Positions 1,285 to 43,265 of a DNA stretch of 43,265 nucleotides are shown one piece after another. The stretch covers positions 1 to 43,265 of the IMG/VR virus record IMGVR_UViG_3300033146_000838; one strand, written 5' to 3'. Below the pieces are notes generated by a model. The model saw only the letters and a program-made list of their open reading frames with translations. It did no database searches and was not told the DNA's origin. Position numbers and translations under genes: made by a program. This DNA comes from a virus. Each line of letters opens with the position of its first letter. Position 1 is the stretch's first letter.

Positions 1285-1882
1285 CTTGAGTTTCTATTTG
1301 TTTAGGTAAAATTTCTACAGCATCTTCAACTGATATATTAGCTAAGTCCCTTAGTTGTGCTTCGGTTAAATCCACAACTTGACCATCCATAGGTTTGACT
1401 TCGATAACTTGTTTCTCTGTCTTATTGTGATTCATCTTTAATATAGAGATAGCTTGGTTACTACCTGCAACGATAGCTATGTTTTCCATATAAGACTCGC
1501 AGAACAGGTCAAAAGAGTCTATAACATCCTCATACGCTTCTCTTTTCTTATAATTAGAAAATGACTTCCTAGATAAACCCATTTGAATTAAGACGTTATT
1601 CTTAGTAATAGGCATACCTTCCTGTGCTACAAGACGTATAGCCTTCTCAAAAGCCTTACCCATATCTTCTGGGGTAGGGTATAACATAGAGTTACCGGCT
1701 CCAGTCGGGTTAGAAGGGGTACTCCATATACCATTTTTACTTGGTCTACCAGCAACGGTAGCAGGAATACCCAATCTTCCCTCATAGAAACGTTTCATCT
1801 GGGCATTGGTCTTAGACCAGCCAGTGCTGTGTTCCTTTCGTGGTTTTTTTGTCTTTGTTTGTTTTGGTGTTATATATGTCAT
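1277..1882 (-). CDS. terS: Terminase small subunit
   Basis: 201 residues. It recognises the packaging site and feeds DNA to TerL. A helix-turn-helix-like segment is visible around residues 93-112 (ITKNNVLIQMGLSRKSFSNY), followed by AISILKMNHNKTEKQVIEV, a pattern common in phage small terminases. The N-terminus is basic. The gene lies directly upstream of terL and overlaps it by 8 nt (ATGAATAA), the usual TerS-TerL arrangement. The family call rests on position, length and the HTH-like segment. Confidence 0.8.
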   Translation of the reverse strand: MTYITPKQTKTKKPRKEHSTGWSKTNAQMKRFYEGRLGIPATVAGRPSKNGIWSTPSNPTGAGNSMLYPTPEDMGKAFEKAIRLVAQEGMPITKNNVLIQMGLSRKSFSNYKKREAYEDVIDSFDLFCESYMENIAIVAGSNQAISILKMNHNKTEKQVIEVKPMDGQVVDLTEAQLRDLANISVEDAVEILPKQIETQDE

Positions 1883-1892
1883 AGTCTGGAAG

Positions 1893-2345
1893 TTATTTTA
1901 ATATTGATTTTCCATTTAGTTTCACATCAGTGATAGTGCCCCCCTCATCTGCGATAGCTTGCTTTGCTTTAATAACTTTCTTTTCATTCTTCTTTTCTTC
2001 AGCTTTAACACGTTTCTTAACTTTTTTCATCTCTTCTTTATCTCCTAATTTCTTTTCAACATCATCAGCGATGAGCTTAGCAGTTAACTGTAATTCTAGT
2101 TCTTGTTCCAGAGTTCCACAAAAAGAGAGCCAGAATTGGTCTTCAGTTAATGGTTTGCCTGATCGGTTCTTTCCAGAGGTAAACTCATCTCTAGCTTTAA
2201 TGATAGCGTCAATCTCAACAGGGATAGCAAAATGTCCTGCCATCTCTCCTTTCTTAAACGACAAGAGGAAAACCTTGCCCTTCTTTTTAACGTCAACTAC
2301 GAATGAGTGAAACTTTAGTTTGTTCCTAAATTCTTTTACTTTCAT
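1893..2345 (-). CDS. Conserved-type phage protein upstream of TerS, unknown function
   Basis: 150 residues. The N-terminal half is mixed (MKVKEFRNKLKFHSFVVDV...). The C-terminal half is strongly charged, with a Lys/Glu helix at about 98-130 that is probably coiled coil. First gene of the terminase operon: its ATG lies about 30 nt after the predicted transcription start of the promoter at 2385-2413, and it ends 10 nt before terS. No family recognised; a packaging or DNA-binding accessory role is only a guess from position. Confidence 0.7.
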   Translation of the reverse strand: MKVKEFRNKLKFHSFVVDVKKKGKVFLLSFKKGEMAGHFAIPVEIDAIIKARDEFTSGKNRSGKPLTEDQFWLSFCGTLEQELELQLTAKLIADDVEKKLGDKEEMKKVKKRVKAEEKKNEKKVIKAKQAIADEGGTITDVKLNGKSILK

Positions 2346-2384
2346 ATTTAATGTGGTTAGTAAATATTATCTTGTCTATAAATA

Positions 2385-2413
2385 TTATACCACACGTGTC
2401 AAGTGAGTGCAAA
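2385..2413 (-). promoter_or_regulatory. Late promoter for the terminase operon
   Basis: On the minus strand TTGCAC (2413-2408), 17 nt, then TATAAT (2390-2385), with the extended TGTGG before the -10. Predicted start near 2378. The TGTGGTATAAT core recurs at 24241, 31793 and 41969, each time upstream of a late gene. Confidence 0.75.
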
Positions 2414-2774
2414 ATAAGTTATATTATAACACATTGCTAATCTTGATATTCTACTAGATATTCATTCAGTCTCCACCCCGTGGGCGACCCTAATTTAATG
2501 GCAAACATAAGCCATCTTAAAAAATAGAACTTTAGACATACAAAAATACTGAATGGCTTAGTTAGGTCAATCGTGTGTCAAGTCCTGTGAGAAGTACTTT
2601 GATTTTTTACAATATTTTTGTTTGGGAGCATCTAGTAACCCCCCCCATTAAAGTATATATCGGTTTCGGGTTTTTGGCTTTCTATAAACGAAAAACAATA
2701 GAACTATAGACCCAAAACATATAGAATCAATTCTAAAGCATTCTAAGCACGTTTTTAAGCGTTTAAACTCTATA

Positions 2775-2797
2775 GGTGGGTGTTGGGTGGGTGGTGG
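2775..2797 (+). other. G-rich stretch with quadruplex potential
   Basis: Three GGG runs and two flanking GG runs separated by 1-3 nt loops (GGTGGGTGTTGGGTGGGTGG). Only three runs reach GGG, so a two-layer quadruplex is the likelier fold. Conspicuous in AT-rich surroundings. Confidence 0.4.
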
Positions 2798-3091
2798 TGC
2801 TAGCGTGCCTTGTGTGCAGTCTATGTGCTTTGCTTAATTCTAAAGTCGCACAATATACATTGTCAGACATTAACAATGGCTTAGATAAGCCGTTTATGTG
2901 TTAAGTGTCCAGTTAAAAGAAAAACACTTTTTCTTTTTTTGTTGACTGTAAGGGAAAGAAAGAGAGTTAAAATACATATTGTAATACAACATTTTGTCTA
3001 TACATAGTTTATATTACATAAATTATTTTGAACCAATACAATATTAATACATTAGCTTTATATATATAGGTATGAGTTAGAATAGTTTATA

Positions 3092-3110
3092 CCCTTTTTT
3101 TCTTTTCCGC
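3092..3110 (+). repeat. Pyrimidine-CCGC intergenic repeat, copy 1 (diverged)
   Basis: CCCTTTTTTTCTTTTCCGC, a degenerate copy of the element seen at 3609, 4121, 4224 and 4821. It lies in the gene-free region upstream of the first early gene. Confidence 0.5.
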
Positions 3111-3217
3111 GAATTAAAATAGTTTATCAATAGTTTTTTTTAAAATACAATTGCCTTACACTAGCTATTAAATACAATTTAGCAACACATTATTCTATAA
3201 AGTCAAGTAATTATCTA

Positions 3218-3246
3218 TTGACAAAGTTAAATAGCAGGTATAACAT
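3218..3246 (+). promoter_or_regulatory. Early promoter for the 3347-4764 cluster
   Basis: TTGACA at 3218-3223 followed by TATAAC at 3239-3244 (15 nt) or TAACAT at 3241-3246 (17 nt). The block CTATTGACAAAGTTAAA is shared with the promoters at 7967 and 8346 and, less exactly, 13121. Confidence 0.65.
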
Positions 3247-3346
3247 GAAGTCGTTCAATCATTATTTATCTTTTAAACTTCTATTGTCGGCTGAATGCTA
3301 ACAGCTAAACAAAGCAAAACTATTTATTATTTAATTTATTTATATC

Positions 3347-3607
3347 ATGAAATACCAAAATCTCAAGCGTCTAAGATGCTTTACAATCTCTTATTTACCT
3401 GCCACCAATACAAAAGGTAGTAGAATTAAGATAAAAGACACTAGACACGAAAAAACAGTTATTATCCCTTTTGATTACAATTTTGATAATATCAAGCAAG
3501 GGGCATTTGAATATCTAAAATCAATAGGCATTGATATCTTAGCAAGTAGCGAAATTAGACAAACTGATTTGCTTTTTGCAGATGATTTTGCTGATAATCT
3601 AATTTAA
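3347..3607 (+). CDS. Small early protein, unknown function
   Basis: 86 residues (MKYQNLKRLRCFTISYLPAT...), basic N-terminus and acidic C-terminus (LLFADDFADNLI). No Shine-Dalgarno; the ATG follows a TTTATTTATATC leader also seen before the next gene. The stop is followed at once by a copy of the pyrimidine-CCGC repeat. No family recognised. Confidence 0.65.
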   Translation: MKYQNLKRLRCFTISYLPATNTKGSRIKIKDTRHEKTVIIPFDYNFDNIKQGAFEYLKSIGIDILASSEIRQTDLLFADDFADNLI

Positions 3608-3608
3608 G

Positions 3609-3627
3609 CCCTTTTTCTTTTTACCGC
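3609..3627 (+). repeat. Pyrimidine-CCGC intergenic repeat, copy 2
   Basis: CCCTTTTTCTTTTTACCGC, beginning 2 nt after the stop of the 86-residue gene. Matches copies at 4121 and 4224 almost base for base. Confidence 0.7.
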
Positions 3628-3670
3628 AATTTTAAAAACCTTTATTTTATTATTTTAACTTATTTATATC

Positions 3671-4120
3671 ATGGAAAAAATCACATTAGGAAAAGTAAAA
3701 ACAGAAATCAAAGAAAGTCAATCCTATAATCCAAAAAAAGATAGCCTTTTTATACAAGGTGAAACAATAGTAATCAAAAAGCATAGCTTTGATTGTGGAT
3801 GGTATTGGGGCTTTGGTTATATAGGAAACAGAAATTTACATTGCCATTCTAGTATATTCACAAATGAATTACTTTGGCATGATGCTAAAGATGTCTTTGA
3901 AAAATCAATCTTTGAAAATAATAAAGATTTTTGGATTTTCAAAGATTTATTAGCTCAAGCGTATGCATTACAAAAAGCATCAGAAGTTTATAGACATGGT
4001 GGTTTTATTACTAGCGGGGCTATTACAGAAATAATCAAAAACAAAGACAAAGAAAATGCAATCAATAAAGATTTAAAAAAGGTATTAGACACTCTATGGA
4101 ATTTTTTAGAAAGTCTTTAG
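3671..4120 (+). CDS. Early protein with a GWYWGFGYIGN motif, unknown function
   Basis: 149 residues. A central aromatic segment (FDCGWYWGFGYIGNRNLHCH, residues 41-60) with Cys and His could form a compact or metal-binding core; the rest is mostly charged helix. Preceded by an AT-rich leader and followed directly by a repeat copy. I recognise it only as a type of hypothetical phage protein and assign no function. Confidence 0.7.
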   Translation: MEKITLGKVKTEIKESQSYNPKKDSLFIQGETIVIKKHSFDCGWYWGFGYIGNRNLHCHSSIFTNELLWHDAKDVFEKSIFENNKDFWIFKDLLAQAYALQKASEVYRHGGFITSGAITEIIKNKDKENAINKDLKKVLDTLWNFLESL

Positions 4121-4139
4121 CCTTTTTTCTTTTTACCGC
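4121..4139 (+). repeat. Pyrimidine-CCGC intergenic repeat, copy 3
   Basis: CCTTTTTTCTTTTTACCGC, starting directly after the stop codon of the 149-residue gene, as copy 2 does after its gene. Confidence 0.7.
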
Positions 4140-4166
4140 CTTTTTATAACTTAACTTTTAAACTTT

Positions 4167-4289
4167 ATGAAAAATCTATTTTATGCACTTATAGGGATAC
4201 AATTTGTTTTTGTAGTGTTTACACCCTTTTTCTTTTTTACCGCAATTTTTAGCGTGTTTATAGCTAAAAAATACAATTTATTTATTTAA
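4167..4289 (+). CDS. Very small membrane protein
   Basis: 40 residues, nearly all hydrophobic (MKNLFYALIGIQFVFVVFTP then FFFFTAIFSVFIAKKYNLFI): one or two membrane spans with a Lys-Lys near the end. Repeat copy 4 lies inside this frame and encodes TPFFFFTA, so either the repeat was captured as coding sequence or the frame is fortuitous. AT-rich leader, no SD. Confidence 0.4.
   Translation: MKNLFYALIGIQFVFVVFTPFFFFTAIFSVFIAKKYNLFI
4224..4243 (+). repeat. Pyrimidine-CCGC repeat, copy 4
   Basis: CCCTTTTTCTTTTTTACCGC. Same element with one extra T. Unlike copies 2 and 3 it falls within a possible small frame (4167-4289). Confidence 0.65.
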
Positions 4290-4313
4290 TTACTTTTTAA
4301 CCTATTTATTATT

Positions 4314-4514
4314 ATGAATTACAATATGAAAAAACACTATGTGCAGTTTCAAGACAATAATGCAAAATATCATGAACTAGGTACAATTTACAATTTTTTA
4401 ATCGATCTAAAAACTTTGCAAGGTATAATTAATAGATGCAAAATAATTAAAAAATATAATAATGATTTTGGTAATAATATCAAAATCGATGGATCAGAAT
4501 ATTCACTTTTATAA
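4314..4514 (+). CDS. Small early protein, unknown function
   Basis: 66 residues (MNYNMKKHYVQFQDNNAKYH...), basic and Asn-rich, with an AT-rich TTATTTATTATT leader before the ATG. It ends 1 nt before the next ATG (4516), so the two are probably co-translated. No family recognised. Confidence 0.5.
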   Translation: MNYNMKKHYVQFQDNNAKYHELGTIYNFLIDLKTLQGIINRCKIIKKYNNDFGNNIKIDGSEYSLL

Positions 4515-4515
4515 A

Positions 4516-4764
4516 ATGAAATACAATATTGAACGCTTATTAAACCATATTATCCAAAAAGAGCAAAATAATGATAATCAATATACTTTGCAAATGTGTT
4601 TTGATACAGTAGATAATTTATCTCAAGATATAAAAACACAAATGCAAGCCGTCAAAGTAAGCAAAAAAATTAATAATAGTTTTTCTTTTTATCTTGAAAT
4701 GTTTTTATTAAATCATACTACTATTAATTTAAGCAAAAAAACAATATCAAAACTTGAAATTTAA
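4516..4764 (+). CDS. Small early protein, unknown function
   Basis: 82 residues from the ATG at 4516. This start is preferred to an in-frame one at 4462 because the upstream gene runs to 4514. Predicted helical (MKYNIERLLNHIIQKEQNND...) with Lys-rich ends. Last gene of the cluster, followed by a terminator at 4768. Confidence 0.55.
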   Translation: MKYNIERLLNHIIQKEQNNDNQYTLQMCFDTVDNLSQDIKTQMQAVKVSKKINNSFSFYLEMFLLNHTTINLSKKTISKLEI

Positions 4765-4767
4765 AAT

Positions 4768-4791
4768 GAGGGGCTTTTTAGCCTCTTTTTT
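4768..4791 (+). terminator. Rho-independent terminator after the first early cluster
   Basis: Stem GAGGGGCT (4768-4775) with AGCCTC (4780-4785), loop TTTT, then a run of six T's. It begins 3 nt after the stop at 4764. Confidence 0.8.
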
Positions 4792-5304
4792 AGTTTTTAA
4801 TTGCTCCTTAACATATTGCACCCATTTTATTTTTACCGCCGTTTAAATAGCGTTTAAATACTTTGTAACATGTTTTTATTTAATACTTTATTATCAAATG
4901 AGTCAATTGTAAAACATTATTACAAGTCAAAATGCTATTGCTTAACACTTTTTTGATAATGGTAAAAAATAAACCTTGCTAGTCTTTTTTGATATACTTG
5001 AAAGATTGCATATATTGCCTTTTTAAGAGTGTTTAATATTGAAGTGGTATGTTTATATTATTTTATAGTTTAATGAGCTAATACATAGCTTAAAATGAGC
5101 CTGCGTTGATTATATACTGTATAAGTCAATAGATATTTCTGTAAACATGCTAAAATGTATACTAATAGACTTTTGCACTTTGGATTTGAAAAAATAAAGA
5201 ATTTGAAAAAGACGATTGGATTTTGGAAATCAGCTATATAGAAGTTCTGAGTGTCAAATATCTCAACGCGCGTATTACTTGGTGGGTAGAAAAGTTGGAA
5301 CGAC
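4792..5304. other. Convergent intergenic region without a credible gene
   Basis: About 500 AT-rich bases between the plus-strand early cluster and the minus-strand operon ending at 5305. It contains repeat copy 5 (4821-4839), a GTTTAAATA direct repeat near 4841-4861, and a minus-strand frame (5330-5070) that I do not consider a gene. Confidence 0.5.
4821..4839 (+). repeat. Pyrimidine-CCGC intergenic repeat, copy 5 (diverged)
   Basis: CCCATTTTATTTTTACCGC, followed by CGTTTAAATAGCG. Two changes from the consensus of copies 2-4. Confidence 0.6.
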
Positions 5305-5541
5305 TTAGTATCTTTTGTTTTCGTCTTCAATATTCAGTACCTCATCAAATTTTCCTTTGATTATCTCTTCTTCTTTGGCTAAAAAACTGTCAACCTTAGT
5401 GTCTGGGTAGTTATAAAAGCGTTGTTTGATGCATTTATCGCACATCATACGCTGTTTAGCTCGTCTAGTTTGGAACTCTTCTCCACAAATAATGCAGTGG
5501 CAAGTCTTAATTGGGTTTAGTTTTTGGTAGTTTGTTTCCAT
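5305..5541 (-). CDS. Zinc-ribbon protein
   Basis: 78 residues from the ATG at 5541. That start was chosen because the upstream gene ends at 5546. Two CxxC pairs (CIICGEEFQTRRAKQRMMCDKC) form a typical zinc ribbon; the C-terminus is acidic. Such small ribbons are common phage regulators or nucleic-acid-binding accessories. Last credible gene of the minus-strand early operon. Confidence 0.65.
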   Translation of the reverse strand: METNYQKLNPIKTCHCIICGEEFQTRRAKQRMMCDKCIKQRFYNYPDTKVDSFLAKEEEIIKGKFDEVLNIEDENKRY

Positions 5542-5545
5542 GTTA

Positions 5546-5797
5546 TTATTTGTTAAATAAATTGCAAATACAATCTCCATTTTCTCTTTCTGGTTTACAT
5601 GGACAAATTGTGTCTTTGTTTCTTTCTATTCTACAAGGACAAAATCCTTGATTGTTTCTTACTGACTCTTTGATTGTAGTATTTACTTTATACCCATGAT
5701 TATCTGCATATTCCTCGATGAGTTCCAAGTTATGTTCTCTTAGTAGGTCTAATTCTTTCTCAGTCATTGTTTTTTGTTGGTGTGATACTCTTGACAT
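5546..5797 (-). CDS. Ferredoxin-thioredoxin reductase catalytic-chain-like protein
   Basis: 83 residues. The C-terminal half has the spaced Cys pattern of the FTR catalytic (beta) chain: CPCR at 53-56, TICPC at 63-67, and CICNLF at 76-81. In FTR these six cysteines bind a [4Fe-4S] cluster and form the redox-active disulfide that reduces thioredoxin with electrons from ferredoxin. The N-terminal helix (ELIEEYADNHGYKVN) also fits the family. It is shorter than typical chains (about 110 residues) because the N-terminus is reduced. It begins 1 nt after the HNH gene ends. Whether it works with the phage glutaredoxin at 18085 is a guess. Confidence 0.72.
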   Translation of the reverse strand: MSRVSHQQKTMTEKELDLLREHNLELIEEYADNHGYKVNTTIKESVRNNQGFCPCRIERNKDTICPCKPERENGDCICNLFNK

Positions 5798-5798
5798 A

Positions 5799-6203
5799 TT
5801 AATTATTAGTTATTAAATACTCATTCATCTGATTTATTTGGTTAAGCCTTTCTTCTAGTTCTTCCATTTGGATTGTCCCTTTTTTTTGATTCGATAGATG
5901 TTTTTCTTGTAGTTTTTCATATCTTCCAGGGAATTTCTTAGTGAACTTATCAGTAGCTTCAAGTGGGTTCTTGTGCCAAAAATTCATGTGACAATGATAG
6001 CAAAGTACCTTGAGATTGTCTGGATCAAATGCCATTCGACCATCAGCAGATACTGGAATTATGTGAGAAGCGTGGCAGTTAGAGCCAGATACAACCTTAT
6101 CGCAGAATTGACAAGTAAATTTGTCACGTTCTTTGACGTAAGTTTTAACTGCTAGTTCTAGCTTCTTTTTAAGCTTTTGTCTTGGAGTTTTTTTTCTTTT
6201 CAT
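5799..6203 (-). CDS. HNH endonuclease, NinG/Rap-like
   Basis: 134 residues. A basic N-terminus is followed by RDKFTCQFCDKVVSGSNCHA, SHIIPVSADGRMAFDPDNLK and VLCYHCHMNFWH: two CxxC pairs framing a His-His-Asn core, as in HNH nucleases and the phage NinG recombination proteins (KYTCQ.C ... GHFIP ... N.R.QCY.CN). The C-terminus is helical. Located in an early operon with small zinc proteins, which favours a resolvase/recombination or nicking role over homing, but both are possible. Confidence 0.75.
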   Translation of the reverse strand: MKRKKTPRQKLKKKLELAVKTYVKERDKFTCQFCDKVVSGSNCHASHIIPVSADGRMAFDPDNLKVLCYHCHMNFWHKNPLEATDKFTKKFPGRYEKLQEKHLSNQKKGTIQMEELEERLNQINQMNEYLITNN

Positions 6204-6315
6204 TTTGTAAGGCTAAATATTCTTTATAACAATACATAGAACAACATTTATCGTTGAACCAGTGGTCTCGGGTTCTGTTTACTGTGGAGTGTCCACAATG
6301 ACAGGTATATTTCAT
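6169..6315 (-). CDS. Small Cys/His-rich protein, first gene of the minus-strand early operon
   Basis: 48 residues: MKYTCHCGHSTVNRTRDHWF then NDKCCSMYCYKEYLALQN and a Lys-rich tail. CHCGH plus CC..YC suggests one zinc site. It overlaps the start of the HNH gene (6203) by 35 nt and is the first frame after the structured leader, with the ATG in an AT-rich context. Confidence 0.6.
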   Translation of the reverse strand: MKYTCHCGHSTVNRTRDHWFNDKCCSMYCYKEYLALQNEKKKNSKTKA

Positions 6316-6537
6316 GTTTTTTGTGTTAAGTGTTAATTAGAGTGAGGAGAGTGGCAAAGCCTTTAAAGTCCAACACTACTCTCCATCGGATTGTTCGGCA
6401 CAATCTGCCACTGTAGCTATAAAAGTTGGAAGACTACAGTCGTTTGTCTATTTTATCACTCTAGTGAGAGTCCTCTCTATCGTGTACTTTAGTAAGAGAG
6501 CCTACAACTCAGTTAATTACTCCTTATTGCACTCTGC
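6316..6537 (-). ncRNA. Structured 5' leader of the minus-strand early operon
   Basis: About 220 untranslated bases between the predicted start (6537) and the first ATG (6315). Perfect stems (plus coordinates): GATTGT 6389-6394 with ACAATC 6400-6405; GTGGCA 6351-6356 with TGCCAC 6406-6411; CTGTAG 6411-6416 with CTACAG 6434-6439; and GGAGAGT 6346-6352 with ACTCTCC 6378-6384. The second and fourth stems cross and share two bases, so they are mutually exclusive or form a pseudoknot, as in a regulatory switch. No known riboswitch class recognised. Confidence 0.55.
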
Positions 6538-6543
6538 ACATCC

Positions 6544-6572
6544 AGTATATCAAGCATTTTTTTTCTTGTCAA
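6544..6572 (-). promoter_or_regulatory. Promoter of the minus-strand early operon
   Basis: Minus strand TTGACA (6572-6567), 17 nt, TATACT (6549-6544). Predicted start 6537. Diverges from the plus-strand promoter at 6632. Confidence 0.75.
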
Positions 6573-6631
6573 GTGAGTACCCTCTTTTTCTTATTCGCCA
6601 CATTTTCAGTTAGATGTAAAGAGCAATACTC

Positions 6632-6659
6632 TTGACAAAGTAAACCAGGTAAGTATAAT
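6632..6659 (+). promoter_or_regulatory. Promoter P1 of the structured RNA region
   Basis: TTGACA 6632-6637, 16 nt, TATAAT 6654-6659: both hexamers are consensus. Predicted start near 6666, followed at once by a long perfect hairpin rather than a gene. Confidence 0.8.
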
Positions 6660-6665
6660 GAGTGT

Positions 6666-6770
6666 ATCAGATGAGGAATAAATAACGAAGTGAACCAGAA
6701 GGGTTCCTTATCTGCAATCGTTTTCGATTGATGGGTTAAATAAGCTCTTCTGGTTCAATACTTCGATAAT
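6666..6770 (+). ncRNA. Candidate hairpin RNA from P1
   Basis: Long near-perfect stem: CGAAGT (6686-6691) with ACTTCG (6760-6765), and GAACCAGAAG (6692-6701) with CTTCTGGTTC (6747-6756). Only a 3-nt bulge (6757-6759) interrupts it. Inside are CTTAT/ATAAG and CAATCG-TTTT-CGATTG (6715-6730). No frame is present. It may be an independent small RNA or an attenuator; the next promoter's -35 begins at 6771. Not recognised as a known family. Confidence 0.6.
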
Positions 6771-6799
6771 TTGACTTCTTAATATATACGCGGTATAAT
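6771..6799 (+). promoter_or_regulatory. Promoter P2 of the structured RNA region
   Basis: TTGACT 6771-6776, 17 nt, TATAAT 6794-6799, with GCGG directly before the -10. Predicted start near 6806. Confidence 0.75.
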
Positions 6800-6805
6800 T
6801 ATTAT

Positions 6806-6982
6806 GTAACGGAAAAACCGTCTTAAATAGATTTCTTTTTCCCAGCTTACGCTTTAGACGGTGCTACAGTTGGGAGAAAAAAGTCTATTTTATTTTAGAC
6901 TAATAAGCCAAACGAATGCTTAATTGCACCGCTTTGGGGAAGACTGCAGGTCTACAGCCATCGTTTATACGATGGCTTTTCT
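6806..6982 (+). ncRNA. Candidate phage small RNA of about 175 nt with its own promoter and terminator
   Basis: Non-coding stretch between promoter P2 and the terminator at 6956-6980. Main feature: a 20-bp rod, AAATAGA (6825-6831) with TCTATTT (6884-6890), extended by TTTCTTTTTCCCA (6832-6844) with TGGGAGAAAAAAG (6871-6883), one C-A mismatch and two G-U pairs. Its apical loop carries CGGTGC (6859-6864), complementary to GCACCG (6926-6931) downstream, a possible pseudoknot. ACCGTCT (6817-6823) can alternatively pair with AGACGGT (6856-6862). Size and rod shape recall 6S RNA, but the pseudoknot does not; no family assigned. Confidence 0.65.
6956..6980 (+). terminator. Rho-independent terminator of the small RNA
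   Basis: AGCCATCG (6956-6963), loop TTTATA, CGATGGCT (6970-6977), then TTTTCT. Perfect 8-bp stem with a U-rich tail. Confidence 0.8.
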
Positions 6983-7229
6983 AGTAATAATAAGATAGTA
7001 CGGTTAAGGCAGAATCTAGCGTACACCAATTTAGTAGTCTTATTATATGTACCCGTTCCTGTGTGCCGTTAAGTCAATTTGGATAATGCTTAATGAACAA
7101 TCTTTGGGGTCTGCTTCCTCTAAATAGCAGCTGAAAGTGATAAAAAAATTGTTTAGCCTCTGACCAAGGGGCTAAACTAACTTAACAGCTGACAAGTGAT
7201 TAAACAATTATCAAGTAATTTAAAACAAT
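6983..7229 (+). other. Structured leader upstream of the DUF559-type endonuclease
   Basis: No gene. Stems: ATAATAAGA (6987-6995) with TCTTATTAT (7038-7046); GTTTAGCC (7151-7158) with GGCTAAAC (7170-7177); AATTGTTTA (7147-7155) with TAAACAATT (7201-7209). A near-direct repeat, CAGCTGAAAGTGAT (7128-7141) and CAGCTGACAAGTGAT (7186-7200), flanks the central hairpin. Probably the 5' leader of the next gene or a third RNA. Confidence 0.5.
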
Positions 7230-7751
7230 ATGAAAAAATTAAAGTTTCCTACTACCACCGAAGAAAGAAAATACATAAATAATATGCAACAACAAAATAA
7301 AAAGATGAGTAAAGAAAACAAAAACGAAAATAAGGCTGATAGATTGCTAAAAAAATATCTTCCTGATGTTAAATTTTCTCGTCAATCTAGATGGGGTTAT
7401 AGAATCTTTGATTTTTGGTCTGCTAAATATGGTATTGCAATAGAATTAGATGGATCAGAACATAATCCTAATTATGATTATTATAGAGATGAATACAATT
7501 TTCGTCGTAGTGGTATTTTAGTATTAAGAATGAAAAATAGTCATATAGATAAAGGAATTAAAGAAATTGCAGATATATTTTTTAATTTCAAAGAATGGAA
7601 AGACAGGAGACTTACATTAGGTATAATAGATGAAAATAATAAGATTATTAAAGATAATATCAAAAAAAGATGTGATGGTTCTGTTAATAGAAGATTATTG
7701 GAAAAATATTTGATAACATTCTTTAAGGAGAAAGTTAGAAGATACTTCTAA
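7230..7751 (+). CDS. DUF559/Vsr-like endonuclease
   Basis: 173 residues. The core matches the PD-(D/E)XK-related DUF559 fold: FSRQSRWGYRIFDFW (residues 49-63), then GIAIELDGSEHNPNYDYYRD, then GILVLRMKNSHI. The D of FDF, E-x-D of IELDG and the nearby His are the expected catalytic residues. The first 35 residues are Lys/Asn-rich. Proteins of this type act as free-standing homing or repair-type nucleases. Its position directly behind the structured RNA region may be meaningful. Confidence 0.8.
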   Translation: MKKLKFPTTTEERKYINNMQQQNKKMSKENKNENKADRLLKKYLPDVKFSRQSRWGYRIFDFWSAKYGIAIELDGSEHNPNYDYYRDEYNFRRSGILVLRMKNSHIDKGIKEIADIFFNFKEWKDRRLTLGIIDENNKIIKDNIKKRCDGSVNRRLLEKYLITFFKEKVRRYF

Positions 7752-7966: not shown

Positions 7967-7995
7967 TTGACAAAGTTAAAAAGTAAGAATATATT
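7967..7995 (+). promoter_or_regulatory. Early promoter, repeat copy A
   Basis: TTGACA 7967-7972, 17 nt, TATATT 7990-7995; predicted start 8002. The 33 bases around it (from AAATTCTATTGACA to AAGAATA) are identical to those around 8346-8370. Confidence 0.8.
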
Positions 7996-8851: not shown

Positions 8852-10774
8852 ATGACTAATACAGTAGATGATTATGAAAAAGGATTTGAAGAAAGAAAAA
8901 TATTTTATAAACTTTCAAAACTAGACCTTAGTGATGAAGATCCAATATTCTCAAAAGAAAAAAGATTAACTTGGGGAACTAAAGGATTAGATGATGAACT
9001 TCCTCCAATAGAGAAACATCATTTGATGGTTATTGTTGGGGCTGGAGGAGTTGGAAAATGTCTTGGAAAAGGAACAAAAGTTAGAATGTTTAATGGAGAT
9101 ATTAAAAAAGCAGAAAATATTTGCGTAGGAGATTTAGTAATGGGAGATGACTCAACTTCGAGAAAAGTTTTATCTCTTGCTAGAGGAAAAGAACAAATGT
9201 ATTGGGTAAGACAAAATACTGCTATGGATTATAGAGTTAATGAGTCTCATATTCTTTCACTTAGAAAAACAGCCAAAAATAAAATAACTAAAAAAGATAT
9301 TAGTGTAAGAGATGTATTGCAGGAGTGTCCAAATTTTTTGAAGAACAACTTTAAAGGATATAAAAATCCAATAGAATATCCAGTCAAAAAGTTATCAATA
9401 GATCCATATTTTTTAGGTTTATGGCTAGGAGATGGTAGTGCTAGAGATGTTAGAGTTACTATAGCGGATAAAAAGACAGGGATAATAGATTTTCTATATT
9501 CTTATGCTTCTCAGCTTGGAATGAAAGTTAATATTAACAGCAATAAAGATGTAAAAGCAAAATCATTTGGCATTACCACTGGTAAACGAGGAAATCCTAA
9601 CCACGAGTGTCTACAAAAAAAATTAAGGCTATTAAATTTATTGAATAATAAACATATTCCAAGAGATTTTTTAATAAATTCAAAAGAGAATAGGTCTAAA
9701 CTCCTAGCTGGATTATTAGATACTGATGGCTATCAAAATTCTAAATGTTGTTTTGATTTTATACAAAAGAGAAAAAAGTTAAGTTATCAAATAAAACAAC
9801 TTGCAGATTCTTTAGGTTTTAAAACTTCGATTAGAAAATGCAAAAAAGGTATTAAATCAATAGGGTTTATTGGTGAATATTATCGCTTGACTATTTCTGG
9901 TGATTTTTCTGATATTCCTTTTAGACACCATACAAAAGGGGAATGGACACAACTTGGTCATTGGGGTAGCACTGGAATCAGCATAGAGAAAGATATAGTT
10001 GATAATTATTATGGATTTTCTCTAGATGGAAACCATAGATTTTTATTAGAAGATGGAACAGTAACTCATAATAGTACATTCACTTTAGACTTAGCTGAAA
10101 AAAATAGCAAGTTAGGACATAGAGTTCTCTACTTATCATTAGAAGAAGAAGTTGAGAATTTTGTTCGTAAAGTTTGTATAAAGACAGCAGGAATTGATAA
10201 AAATCAATGGAGAGATAGAGCAGAAAGACCAATACCACAACGTCAAGTAGATACTTATATTAATAAACAGGCAGAAATATATGATAATGAGAATTTAATC
10301 ATAGCCTCACTGAAGAAAGGAGAAATATGTTTAGATGCTAATATAAAAAATATAACAAAGATGATAGAAGTACATGACCCAGACTTTGTTATAATAGATA
10401 ACTTTAATTTAGTTGAAGCTTCAAAATATGCCAAAGGAAATGAGATAGATGACAGTATAATAAAATTCTTTCTAACATATACTAATAAAGTTAAGATACC
10501 AATCTTATTTTTACACCATACAAACAAAGAAGGTAAAATACGTGGATCAGAAAAAATTAGAGACTCAGCAGATATAGCTCTTTCTATAACAAGAGAAATT
10601 GATGAGCATGCTTCACCAGAAGATAATGCTACTACTCTTATATCATCAGCTAAAGACAGAGATTGGGGAACATTTCAAGCAGCTAAGATATTTTTTAATA
10701 GAGGAACATTTAATGACGAATATATTGAACCACAAATTGTATCTTATAACAAGGGAAGTTTCCTTGACAATTAA
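8852..10774 (+). CDS. RecA-fold replicative helicase interrupted by an intein
   Basis: 640-residue precursor. Exteins (residues 1-69 and 408-640) join to a 302-residue ATPase: Walker A GAGGVGK|STFTL is restored by splicing, Walker B is DPDFVIIDN, followed by ILFLHHTNKEGKIRGSEKIR (sensor/DNA-loop-like) and DIALSI. The size and motif order fit the RepA/AAA_25 or DnaB-core type of hexameric helicase without the N-terminal DnaB domain. The intein occupies 9059-10072. The upstream TTTATTTATTTAAC leader replaces an SD. No separate primase gene is visible. Confidence 0.88.
   Translation: MTNTVDDYEKGFEERKIFYKLSKLDLSDEDPIFSKEKRLTWGTKGLDDELPPIEKHHLMVIVGAGGVGKCLGKGTKVRMFNGDIKKAENICVGDLVMGDDSTSRKVLSLARGKEQMYWVRQNTAMDYRVNESHILSLRKTAKNKITKKDISVRDVLQECPNFLKNNFKGYKNPIEYPVKKLSIDPYFLGLWLGDGSARDVRVTIADKKTGIIDFLYSYASQLGMKVNINSNKDVKAKSFGITTGKRGNPNHECLQKKLRLLNLLNNKHIPRDFLINSKENRSKLLAGLLDTDGYQNSKCCFDFIQKRKKLSYQIKQLADSLGFKTSIRKCKKGIKSIGFIGEYYRLTISGDFSDIPFRHHTKGEWTQLGHWGSTGISIEKDIVDNYYGFSLDGNHRFLLEDGTVTHNSTFTLDLAEKNSKLGHRVLYLSLEEEVENFVRKVCIKTAGIDKNQWRDRAERPIPQRQVDTYINKQAEIYDNENLIIASLKKGEICLDANIKNITKMIEVHDPDFVIIDNFNLVEASKYAKGNEIDDSIIKFFLTYTNKVKIPILFLHHTNKEGKIRGSEKIRDSADIALSITREIDEHASPEDNATTLISSAKDRDWGTFQAAKIFFNRGTFNDEYIEPQIVSYNKGSFLDN
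9059..10072 (+). mobile_element. LAGLIDADG intein inside the helicase Walker A motif
   Basis: 338 residues, from Cys1 (CLGKGTKVRMFNGDIKKAENI) to HN followed by Ser+1. Block B is VNESHILSL. Endonuclease motifs are YFLGLWLGDGSA (first LAGLIDADG) and LLAGLLDTDGYQ (second). The end is NYYGFSLDGNHRFLLEDGTV then THN, with penultimate His and terminal Asn. Insertion between Lys and Ser of GVGKS inactivates the ATPase until splicing. All motifs are intact, so it is probably active for both splicing and homing. Confidence 0.95.
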
Positions 10775-11212: not shown

Positions 11213-11455
11213 ATGGCAAAAAAAGACAAAGGAGCAGTAGCAATAGAAACTCCAGATGTACAACCTCAACCTAATCCACTTACTCCTGAACAACAAGCAG
11301 AAGTAAATAGGATTATCCAAGAGAACAATCACATGAAGATGGAAGCTTTAGACTTATACAGAATGAACAAAGCTTTAGAAGATAGAAACCAGTTCTTAGA
11401 AAGACAAGTAGAACACTTCCAGAAAGAAGCAGGAGTTAATCCAGATACATTATAA
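11213..11455 (+). CDS. Small coiled-coil protein
   Basis: 80 residues. Pro/Gln-rich N-terminus (PDVQPQPNPLTPEQQ), then a long heptad-type helix (VNRIIQENNHMKMEALDLYR...). Followed by a terminator at 11465. Function unknown. Confidence 0.6.
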   Translation: MAKKDKGAVAIETPDVQPQPNPLTPEQQAEVNRIIQENNHMKMEALDLYRMNKALEDRNQFLERQVEHFQKEAGVNPDTL

Positions 11456-41968: not shown

Positions 41969-41996
41969 ATTATACCACAATAAAAGATTACCTCAA
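41969..41996 (-). promoter_or_regulatory. Late promoter for the portal-capsid operon
   Basis: Minus strand TTGAGG (41996-41991, in the last codons of terL), 16 nt ending in TGTGG, TATAAT (41974-41969). Predicted start 41962, about 35 nt before the portal ATG (41927). Confidence 0.75.
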
Positions 41997-43265
41997 AATA
42001 GAGCGTCTCTTGCTTCCGAGTATCTTATTGTTGTATTCTGCCATAGCTTTATCAGGTGTCAAGATGCCCCCCCCTCTTTCTTCCCACATTGAAACTGCCT
42101 GTGCTAAAACATCAGGTAGATCATCATGTTTATCCGCAGGAAACTTGAGTAATTGACGTTCTAATTTAAACCAAGTCTTGTCTGTGTTGTCATTTCTGAA
42201 ATGTAGAGCATGTCGGTTAAAGATAGGCTCTAATGTATATTTGATTCTGTCTTCTTTCTTACCTTTATTGACTGGTCTGAAAGGTAGCACTGTGTAAAAC
42301 TTACCAGAGTCCCTGATAGCTTTATTAAATCCTTTAGAGAAGTCCTGTTGTTTAGTAGATAACGATACTTCCTCCAGCGAGATGAAGTCAAGAGTCCAGC
42401 CAGCAGACTTCCACTTTTCAGCTAGGGAAATAACATAAGCGTAAGATTGACTAGGAGTAACAGTTTCTCCAAAGATGTCAAGAACATATATCTCTCCTGT
42501 CCCTTTGTGTTTAGCAGTTACTACGATAGCTGTATCATCTGAATACTTACGAGTTGAGAAAGCAGGGTCTATACTGATACCTATTGTAAAGTCTTCCTTC
42601 TTTAGGTCAGACAAAGCACAATAACGAAAATCTGATTTTTTAAATATCTCACCAGTAGATGAGATAGGGTCTTGTTGGTATAAGGCTGCGAAGTCACGTT
42701 CACCGATGGCGTCTCTCTGTTGTTCGTAGAACTCTAGTCCTAATCCTGGCCTGTTACATAAGGCTTCATTTTCTTCATTAATAGCAGGGAAAGAAAGTAT
42801 CTCCCAATTATCTCCATCTGTTTCTATAATACGTCCAGCTAAGTCATCTATGTTCCATCGAGTCATCAGTAAGATGATAGCAGAGTTAGAACCTTGCTGA
42901 CGAGTAAAGAATGTAGAAGTGTACCAATCCCATACTGACTCCCTTACTGTCAATGACTCAGCCTGTTGTCTATCTTTAACTGGGTCGTCGATTATTCCGC
43001 AGTTATGAGCCAAAATCCCATTAACAAAGAAATTATGATTGTCTTCTACTTGTAAATCGTACACATCCTCTTCTCCTTTTAAGAAAGTAATTGAGGAAAT
43101 GGTGTCTGTTTTGAGTGATGATGTTTCGCATGACATATCCGACAAACAGGGACTAGATTTTCTTCCTTGTTGTTTTGTGGATTTAAATCCTTGTGATGTA
43201 TCACTATATCTTCTTTTCCTCCACAAACTACACAAGAAGGATTTGTCTTTCTTATTCTGTATTTC
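41988..43265 (-). CDS. terL: Terminase large subunit, C-terminal part (continues from base 1)
   Basis: Second half of terL. Bases 43151-43002 encode the end of the intein, with block F/G motif GEEDVYDLQVEDNHNFF and terminal AHN followed by Cys+1. The C-extein (43001-41991, 337 residues) starts CGIIDDPVKDR (Walker B, IIDD) and goes on through LLMTRWN (coupling motif) to the RNase H-fold nuclease, with ISIDPAFS and a late KHDDLPD acidic motif. The gene ends at 41988. The portal promoter -35 lies in its last codons. Bases 43152-43265 duplicate 1-114. Confidence 0.95.
   Translation of the reverse strand, partial: EIQNKKDKSFLCSLWRKRRYSDTSQGFKSTKQQGRKSSPCLSDMSCETSSLKTDTISSITFLKGEEDVYDLQVEDNHNFFVNGILAHNCGIIDDPVKDRQQAESLTVRESVWDWYTSTFFTRQQGSNSAIILLMTRWNIDDLAGRIIETDGDNWEILSFPAINEENEALCNRPGLGLEFYEQQRDAIGERDFAALYQQDPISSTGEIFKKSDFRYCALSDLKKEDFTIGISIDPAFSTRKYSDDTAIVVTAKHKGTGEIYVLDIFGETVTPSQSYAYVISLAEKWKSAGWTLDFISLEEVSLSTKQQDFSKGFNKAIRDSGKFYTVLPFRPVNKGKKEDRIKYTLEPIFNRHALHFRNDNTDKTWFKLERQLLKFPADKHDDLPDVLAQAVSMWEERGGGILTPDKAMAEYNNKILGSKRRSILR
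43002..43151 (-). mobile_element. TerL intein, C-terminal part with splicing blocks F and G
   Basis: The last 50 intein residues. SSITFLKGEEDVYDLQVED and NHNFFVNGILAHN match intein blocks F and G, with the penultimate His and terminal Asn present and Cys as the +1 residue. These motifs are in the terminase frame (0). The HNH frame terminates at TAA 43081-43079, just upstream of block F. Confidence 0.93.
43079..43265 (-). CDS. HNH homing endonuclease nested in the +1 frame of the TerL intein (3' part)
   Basis: C-terminal end of the nested HNH gene, ending with TAA at 43081-43079. It contains the second half of the HNH fold (NLVPVCRICHAKHHHSK). At the AAAA run 43112-43109 a -1 shift from this frame would give ...HHHSK-TDTISSITFLKGEED, which is the expected smooth HNH-to-block-F join of an ordinary HNH intein. 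Bases 43152-43265 are the duplicated end. Confidence 0.88.
   Translation of the reverse strand, partial: KYRIRKTNPSCVVCGGKEDIVIHHKDLNPQNNKEENLVPVCRICHAKHHHSKQTPFPQLLS
43152..43265. repeat. Right copy of 114-bp terminal direct repeat
   Basis: Exact copy of bases 1-114. Joining the two ends restores one open frame for terL from 1284 down through 1/43151 to 41988, which supports circularity. Confidence 0.95.

Follow-up and report, generated by a model that had tools for sequence, protein, structure and literature searches.

The locus and its setting

The window, by which we mean the entire 43,265-nt stretch of DNA that was analyzed, has a 114-bp direct terminal repeat at its ends, and a terminase large-subunit gene that contains an intein runs across these ends (positions 1–1276 and 41988–43265). 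The genome is therefore complete and either circular or circularly permuted, and it belongs to a poorly known tailed phage with a 43-kb genome. Structural genes are read leftward, and replication genes, including those for a replication initiator, a DnaB-like helicase, and an exonuclease, are read rightward from 7230 to about 18300. The RNA region that concerns us here stands at the head of this rightward block, in the gap between the leftward genes (6315 and below) and a DUF559 gene that begins at 7230. The DnaB-like helicase gene (8852–10774) is itself split by a LAGLIDADG intein, and inteins also occur in the terminase genes of two relatives (L088 and L002). Another long noncoding gap, of 1 kb (2346–3346), lies between divergent late and rightward genes. 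The features of the RNA region are as follows.

6544–6572, minus strand: divergent promoter TTGACA-17-TATACT, serving leftward genes (a 48-aa zinc-type ORF at 6315 and an HNH gene at 6203)
6632–6659, plus strand: promoter P1, TTGACA-16-TATAAT, a perfect 12/12 match
6686–6766, plus strand: RNA1 hairpin (31 pairs; −36.3 kcal/mol), stronger than any other local hairpin in the window
6771–6799, plus strand: promoter P2, TTGACT-17-TATAAT, an 11/12 match with an expected start at G6806
6806–6982, plus strand: RNA2, about 176–177 nt, the RNA of an earlier sequence-only reading (z = −5.7; start and end inferred)
6809–6821, plus strand: small 5′ hairpin ACGG-AAAAA-CCGU, adjoining the rod (probability 0.4–0.95, depending on transcript)
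6825–6890, plus strand: rod hairpin, 6825–6834 paired with 6881–6890 and 6836–6847 with 6868–6879, apical loop 6848–6867
Rod loop of RNA2, plus strand: loop sequence AGACGGUGC
6908–6937, plus strand: middle hairpin with bulges, containing GCACCG (6926–6931), from the centroid fold
6915–6939, plus strand: motif AATGCTTAAT-N7-CTTTGGGG, copy one, before the terminator
6956–6981, plus strand: intrinsic terminator, 9-bp stem at 6956–6977 and tail UUUUCU (pairing probability about 1)
7085–7109, plus strand: motif AATGCTTAAT-N7-CTTTGGGG, copy two, beyond the terminator
7128–7192, plus strand: third large hairpin (21 pairs; −25.9 kcal/mol), part of the DUF559 leader
7230–7751, plus strand: DUF559 gene (Vsr/homing-endonuclease-like; Pfam PF04480, E = 1.6e-12), the first gene after the RNA region

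Two tandem promoter-hairpin modules

Promoter sequences matching at 11 or more of 12 positions occurred 9 times in the window, compared to a mean of 2.55 and a maximum of 7 in 200 shuffled genomes. P1 belongs to a phage promoter family with the sequence TTGACAAAGT[TA]AA, the other members of which, at 3218, 7967, and 8346 on the plus strand, stand before rightward genes, and P1 therefore resembles one of the early promoters of the phage. P2 does not have this family sequence; its 11/12 match confirms the consensus promoter that the sequence-only reading had assigned to RNA2, and the expected start, G6806, is a purine 7 nt 3′ of the −10 box. A second promoter family, CTCACTTGACA, is found before leftward genes at 2397–2407 and 6567–6577 (minus strand).

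The rod of RNA2 contains 22 bp, arranged as 10 bp (one of them U-G) and 12 bp with a single C/A mismatch between them, and its pair probabilities were mostly 0.9–1.0. The 177 nt of RNA2 folded at −57.2 kcal/mol, compared to a shuffle mean of −36.1 kcal/mol, and none of 200 shuffles folded as well, which bears out the rod-like fold claimed previously. The opposite strand of RNA2 folded worse (z = −4.4). On its own, the rod is ordinary, in that shuffled genomes reach −23 to −33 kcal/mol. When hairpins spanning 80 nt or less on both strands of the 43 kb were ranked, the RNA1 hairpin, the rod, and the third hairpin came first, sixth, and eighth, respectively. Three of the eight strongest local hairpins thus lie within 507 nt, share a strand with the early genes, and flank the terminator on both sides. 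In two cases in the window, a promoter of at least 11/12 has a hairpin of at least −25 kcal/mol in strength no more than 120 nt after it; among 200 shuffled genomes, one such case occurred in 1% and two cases in none.

The promoters, the hairpins, the terminator, and their non-random clustering are all features of the sequence, and as far as these features tell, the RNA-making locus is real and non-random. RNA2 is half of a larger unit, being the second of two tandem promoter-plus-hairpin modules. The sequence-only reading had treated RNA2 as autonomous within its own two ends and had missed both the upstream module (6632–6766) and a downstream one (6982–7229).

The terminator and the pairings around it

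The terminator had been described as perfect. Its 9-bp stem is, but its tail, UUUUCUAG, is an imperfect U-tract, and the terminator scored only −1.5 to 7.7, depending on register, compared to 14.9 for the terminator at 4768. No alternative antiterminator fold was found, and the terminator formed with a probability near 1 in every transcript tested, which led us to reject a classical attenuator with an alternative antiterminator. Because the terminator forms so readily, any gating would need an antiterminator or an effect on polymerase like that of the put RNAs discussed below.

Two further pairings had been proposed for the loop of the rod, and neither was supported. First, CGGTGC in the loop (6859–6864) does match GCACCG in the middle hairpin (6926–6931), but the match has a chance P of 0.17 and brings no gain in energy: 8.5 kcal/mol is needed to open both strands and 9.3 kcal/mol is recovered from the duplex, so nothing is gained once the pseudoknot penalty is also paid. 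Second, the switch pairing of ACCGTCT (6817–6823) with AGACGGT (6856–6862) has a chance P of 0.011, yet it excludes the rod and costs 10.8 kcal/mol. One strand of this switch abuts the base of the 22-bp rod, with a 1-nt linker, and the other lies in the loop, so on geometric grounds the two helices should be unable to coexist. The ACCGUCU/AGACGGU pairing was a minimum only transiently, at about 60 nt transcribed, and would be a brief folding intermediate at most. Thus, the promoter, the rod, and the terminator hairpin of the original description stand, but the loop pairings, the perfection of the terminator, and the autonomy of RNA2 do not.

The 25-nt motif AATGCTTAAT-N7-CTTTGGGG occurs exactly twice, once on each side of the terminator. 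Local alignment of the two motif regions gave P = 0.034, a similarity that is no more than moderately significant. Each copy also reads as the beginning of a short ORF (MLN...LG), MLNCTALGKTAGLQPSFIRWLF and MLNEQSLGSASSK, and the motif may encode a pair of leader peptides, be a site for a protein, or be a small element that was duplicated.

Homologue searches and the likely host

Searches of phages, plasmids, and Rfam returned no homologue of the RNA, and the stems therefore have no support from covariation or conservation. No exact 32-mer of the RNA was present in viral contigs, comparison with the records of 12 relatives gave only short AT-rich matches, and blastn against 379 genomes from the phylum of the Gracilibacteria MAG described below gave scattered matches of 19–45 bases, which is chance level. 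A single-sequence covariance model gave only two weak matches, which we judged to reflect chance or convergence: the first (L233; 20.4 bits) overlaps open frames, and about one match with such an E-value is expected over the 379 genomes, and the second (L178, 6398–6460) agrees as a rod only. A covariance-model search, which the sequence-only reading had called for, was run against Rfam 15 and returned no family for this RNA at the gathering cut-off. The sole Rfam match in 6200–7260 at up to E = 5 was cow-rumen-3 at 7081–7176 (15.9 bits, E = 0.67), which we did not accept. Identification as a tRNA or tmRNA was also rejected after search. TIGR arrays occur in phages and parasitic bacteria (PMC12045711), but the window contains no dual-repeat or stem-loop array and no Nop-domain protein, and a TIGR array or TIGR-Tas system was rejected as well.

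Close relatives of the DUF559, replication, and capsid proteins were not found in viral contigs. A search with a terminase alignment reached only distant phages, and one with a capsid alignment found relatives (L088–L098), the closest of which, L088, stands at 65% for terminase, 53% for portal, and 52% for capsid; L088 starts at the terminase gene, and the RNA region falls outside its span. A portal alignment found no match in genome contigs or in the 379 genomes. TGA serves as a sense codon in the phage L012 and its kin, and translation of L012 positions 1853–6972 with table 25 yields full terminase and portal-position frames. Gracilibacteria and Absconditabacteria read TGA as sense, and one terminase relative sits in a Gracilibacteria MAG (L183). 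No Shine-Dalgarno sequences were found before the genes of this phage. Because distant relatives are among TGA-recoded phages, and from the terminase in the Gracilibacteria MAG and the lack of Shine-Dalgarno sequences, the putative host is likely to be a member of the Patescibacteria. A UUUUUAAY stretch lies about 13–17 nt before many start codons of the phage (for example, those at 11213, 11758, 16100, 24798, and 33132).

An ORF-based count found no noncoding gap longer than 200 nt in the examined parts of the relative G003. Rfam identified two tRNAs and an adjoining abiF RNA in the same relative (L175, 7102–7358), so the ORF-based count understates the noncoding sequence there.

A candidate structured leader of the early operon

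The explanation that we favor, tentatively and on sequence features, is that the locus encodes a structured, partly terminated leader RNA of the rightward early (replication) operon. Host RNA polymerase would start at P1 and P2, and the transcripts from both promoters would fold into long hairpins. A partial stop at 6981 would leave a stable RNA of about 176 nt (from P2) or about 317 nt (from P1), and the remaining polymerase would pass the imperfect terminator and read on through more structured leader into the DUF559 gene. The leader RNA and the terminator would thereby gate or tune early rightward transcription. Transcription, read-through, and gating are what we infer from the arrangement; given two modules, a partial stop, and read-through into the DUF559 gene, the role would most likely be in cis.

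Several observations favor such a leader. First, the combination of a promoter and a large hairpin is doubled, as in none of the shuffled genomes. Second, the locus heads the rightward block, and the DUF559 gene lacks a strong promoter of its own, with no match better than 9/12 in 6982–7229, a level common by chance. Third, the terminator has a weak U-tract and score. Finally, the 25-nt motif is present on both sides of the terminator. Other observations argue against it. Without a homologue, there is neither covariation nor a conserved position; an antiterminator fold is lacking; the nearby replication genes have strong promoters of their own at 7967 and 8346; RNA2 does not clearly match the two balanced stems of put; and RNA3 by itself is no better folded than shuffles (z = −1.2).

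Two known systems offer partial parallels. The lambda 6S RNA is a late leader of nearly 200 nt that runs from the strong promoter pR′ to the intrinsic terminator tR′, with phage genes beyond. Like the lambda leader, the present locus has strong promoters (11/12 and 12/12) directly before the RNA and an intrinsic terminator before codirectional genes; unlike it, the locus heads the early block and has two promoters and large hairpins. Read-through of a leader of the lambda type depends on an antiterminator; searches for a known antiterminator gene came up empty here, and a Q-like protein was likewise not identified. The put RNA binds the zinc-binding domain of the β′ subunit of RNA polymerase and suppresses termination without a protein. 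In HK022, two put RNAs (putL and putR) located 3′ of early promoters let polymerase pass terminators (PMC9378689), and here, too, two structured RNAs follow early promoters ahead of a terminator. In contrast to put, which is about 70 nt long and has two stem-loops, the hairpins here are single and span 66–81 nt, one of them with a 4-bp 5′ neighbor: nucleotides 4–85 of RNA2 form a 4-bp stem and then the 22-bp rod, and RNA1 forms one hairpin.

The main rival, which is almost as likely as the leader but which we hold to be possible rather than probable, is that RNA2 is a trans-acting phage small RNA, transcribed from P2 (and P1) as far as 6981, and using its rod and loop to act on an RNA or a protein of the host. 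Its promoter-body-terminator anatomy is complete, its fold is stable, and a single terminator is fed by two promoters. Several phages encode small RNAs of this sort, including OOP, PreS, and sar (PMC12197685), which share with RNA2 a promoter and terminator of their own. Two of these, OOP and sar, run antisense to phage genes, but for RNA2 no such gene was found here, and we rejected an antisense role. RNA2 has no complementary stretch longer than 12 nt elsewhere in the phage genome, so no internal target stands out. The lack of a homologue or Rfam match and the continuation of the same hairpin style past the terminator also count against a trans-acting RNA.

It is unlikely that the inverted repeats act as DNA, as a replication origin or as regulator sites between divergent operons, with the RNA being incidental. 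The region does lie between divergent promoters and near the turning point of the cumulative GC skew at about 5–6 kb, and both strands of the RNA1 repeat can fold (−36.3 kcal/mol on the plus strand and −28.2 kcal/mol on the other). However, both hairpins fold better on the plus strand and begin shortly after strong plus-strand promoters, a plus-strand terminator then follows, no DnaA-box-like site was found within the RNA region, and the skew also just tracks gene direction. Still less probable is that this promoter-hairpin array in a Patescibacteria phage represents a new class of protein-free antiterminator or polymerase-binding RNA, unrelated in sequence to described families.

The proposal that RNA2 is a complete RNA gene is plausible, with a promoter, a structured body, and a terminator present above chance, but the 6S-like and packaging roles named for it found no support. 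A 6S-like polymerase regulator or a packaging RNA is very improbable: RNA2 resembles bacterial 6S RNA in its length of about 177 nt and its long, rod-like hairpin, but neither RF00013 nor RF00044 was matched at up to E = 5, there is no central bubble between two helical arms of the kind described in PMC8876501, and the terminase of this genome is of the usual two-subunit type.

Whether a phage leader or a small RNA, the locus is of an ordinary kind; what sets it apart is mainly its strength and its likely host. To our knowledge, hardly anything has been established about how genes are controlled in phages of Patescibacteria, and a compact locus that combines the best promoters of the genome with three of its eight strongest hairpins offers an obvious place to begin. 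Should early transcription be gated here, the locus would join the small number of leader or antitermination systems based on RNA; should RNA2 act in trans, it would represent a phage small RNA directed at a type of host for which few RNA regulators are known. In a distant phage (L117, 1431–1550), a perfect promoter with an intrinsic terminator within about 50 nt lies just before the terminase genes, forming a lambda-6S-like late leader with a promoter-terminator layout comparable to that of the present locus.
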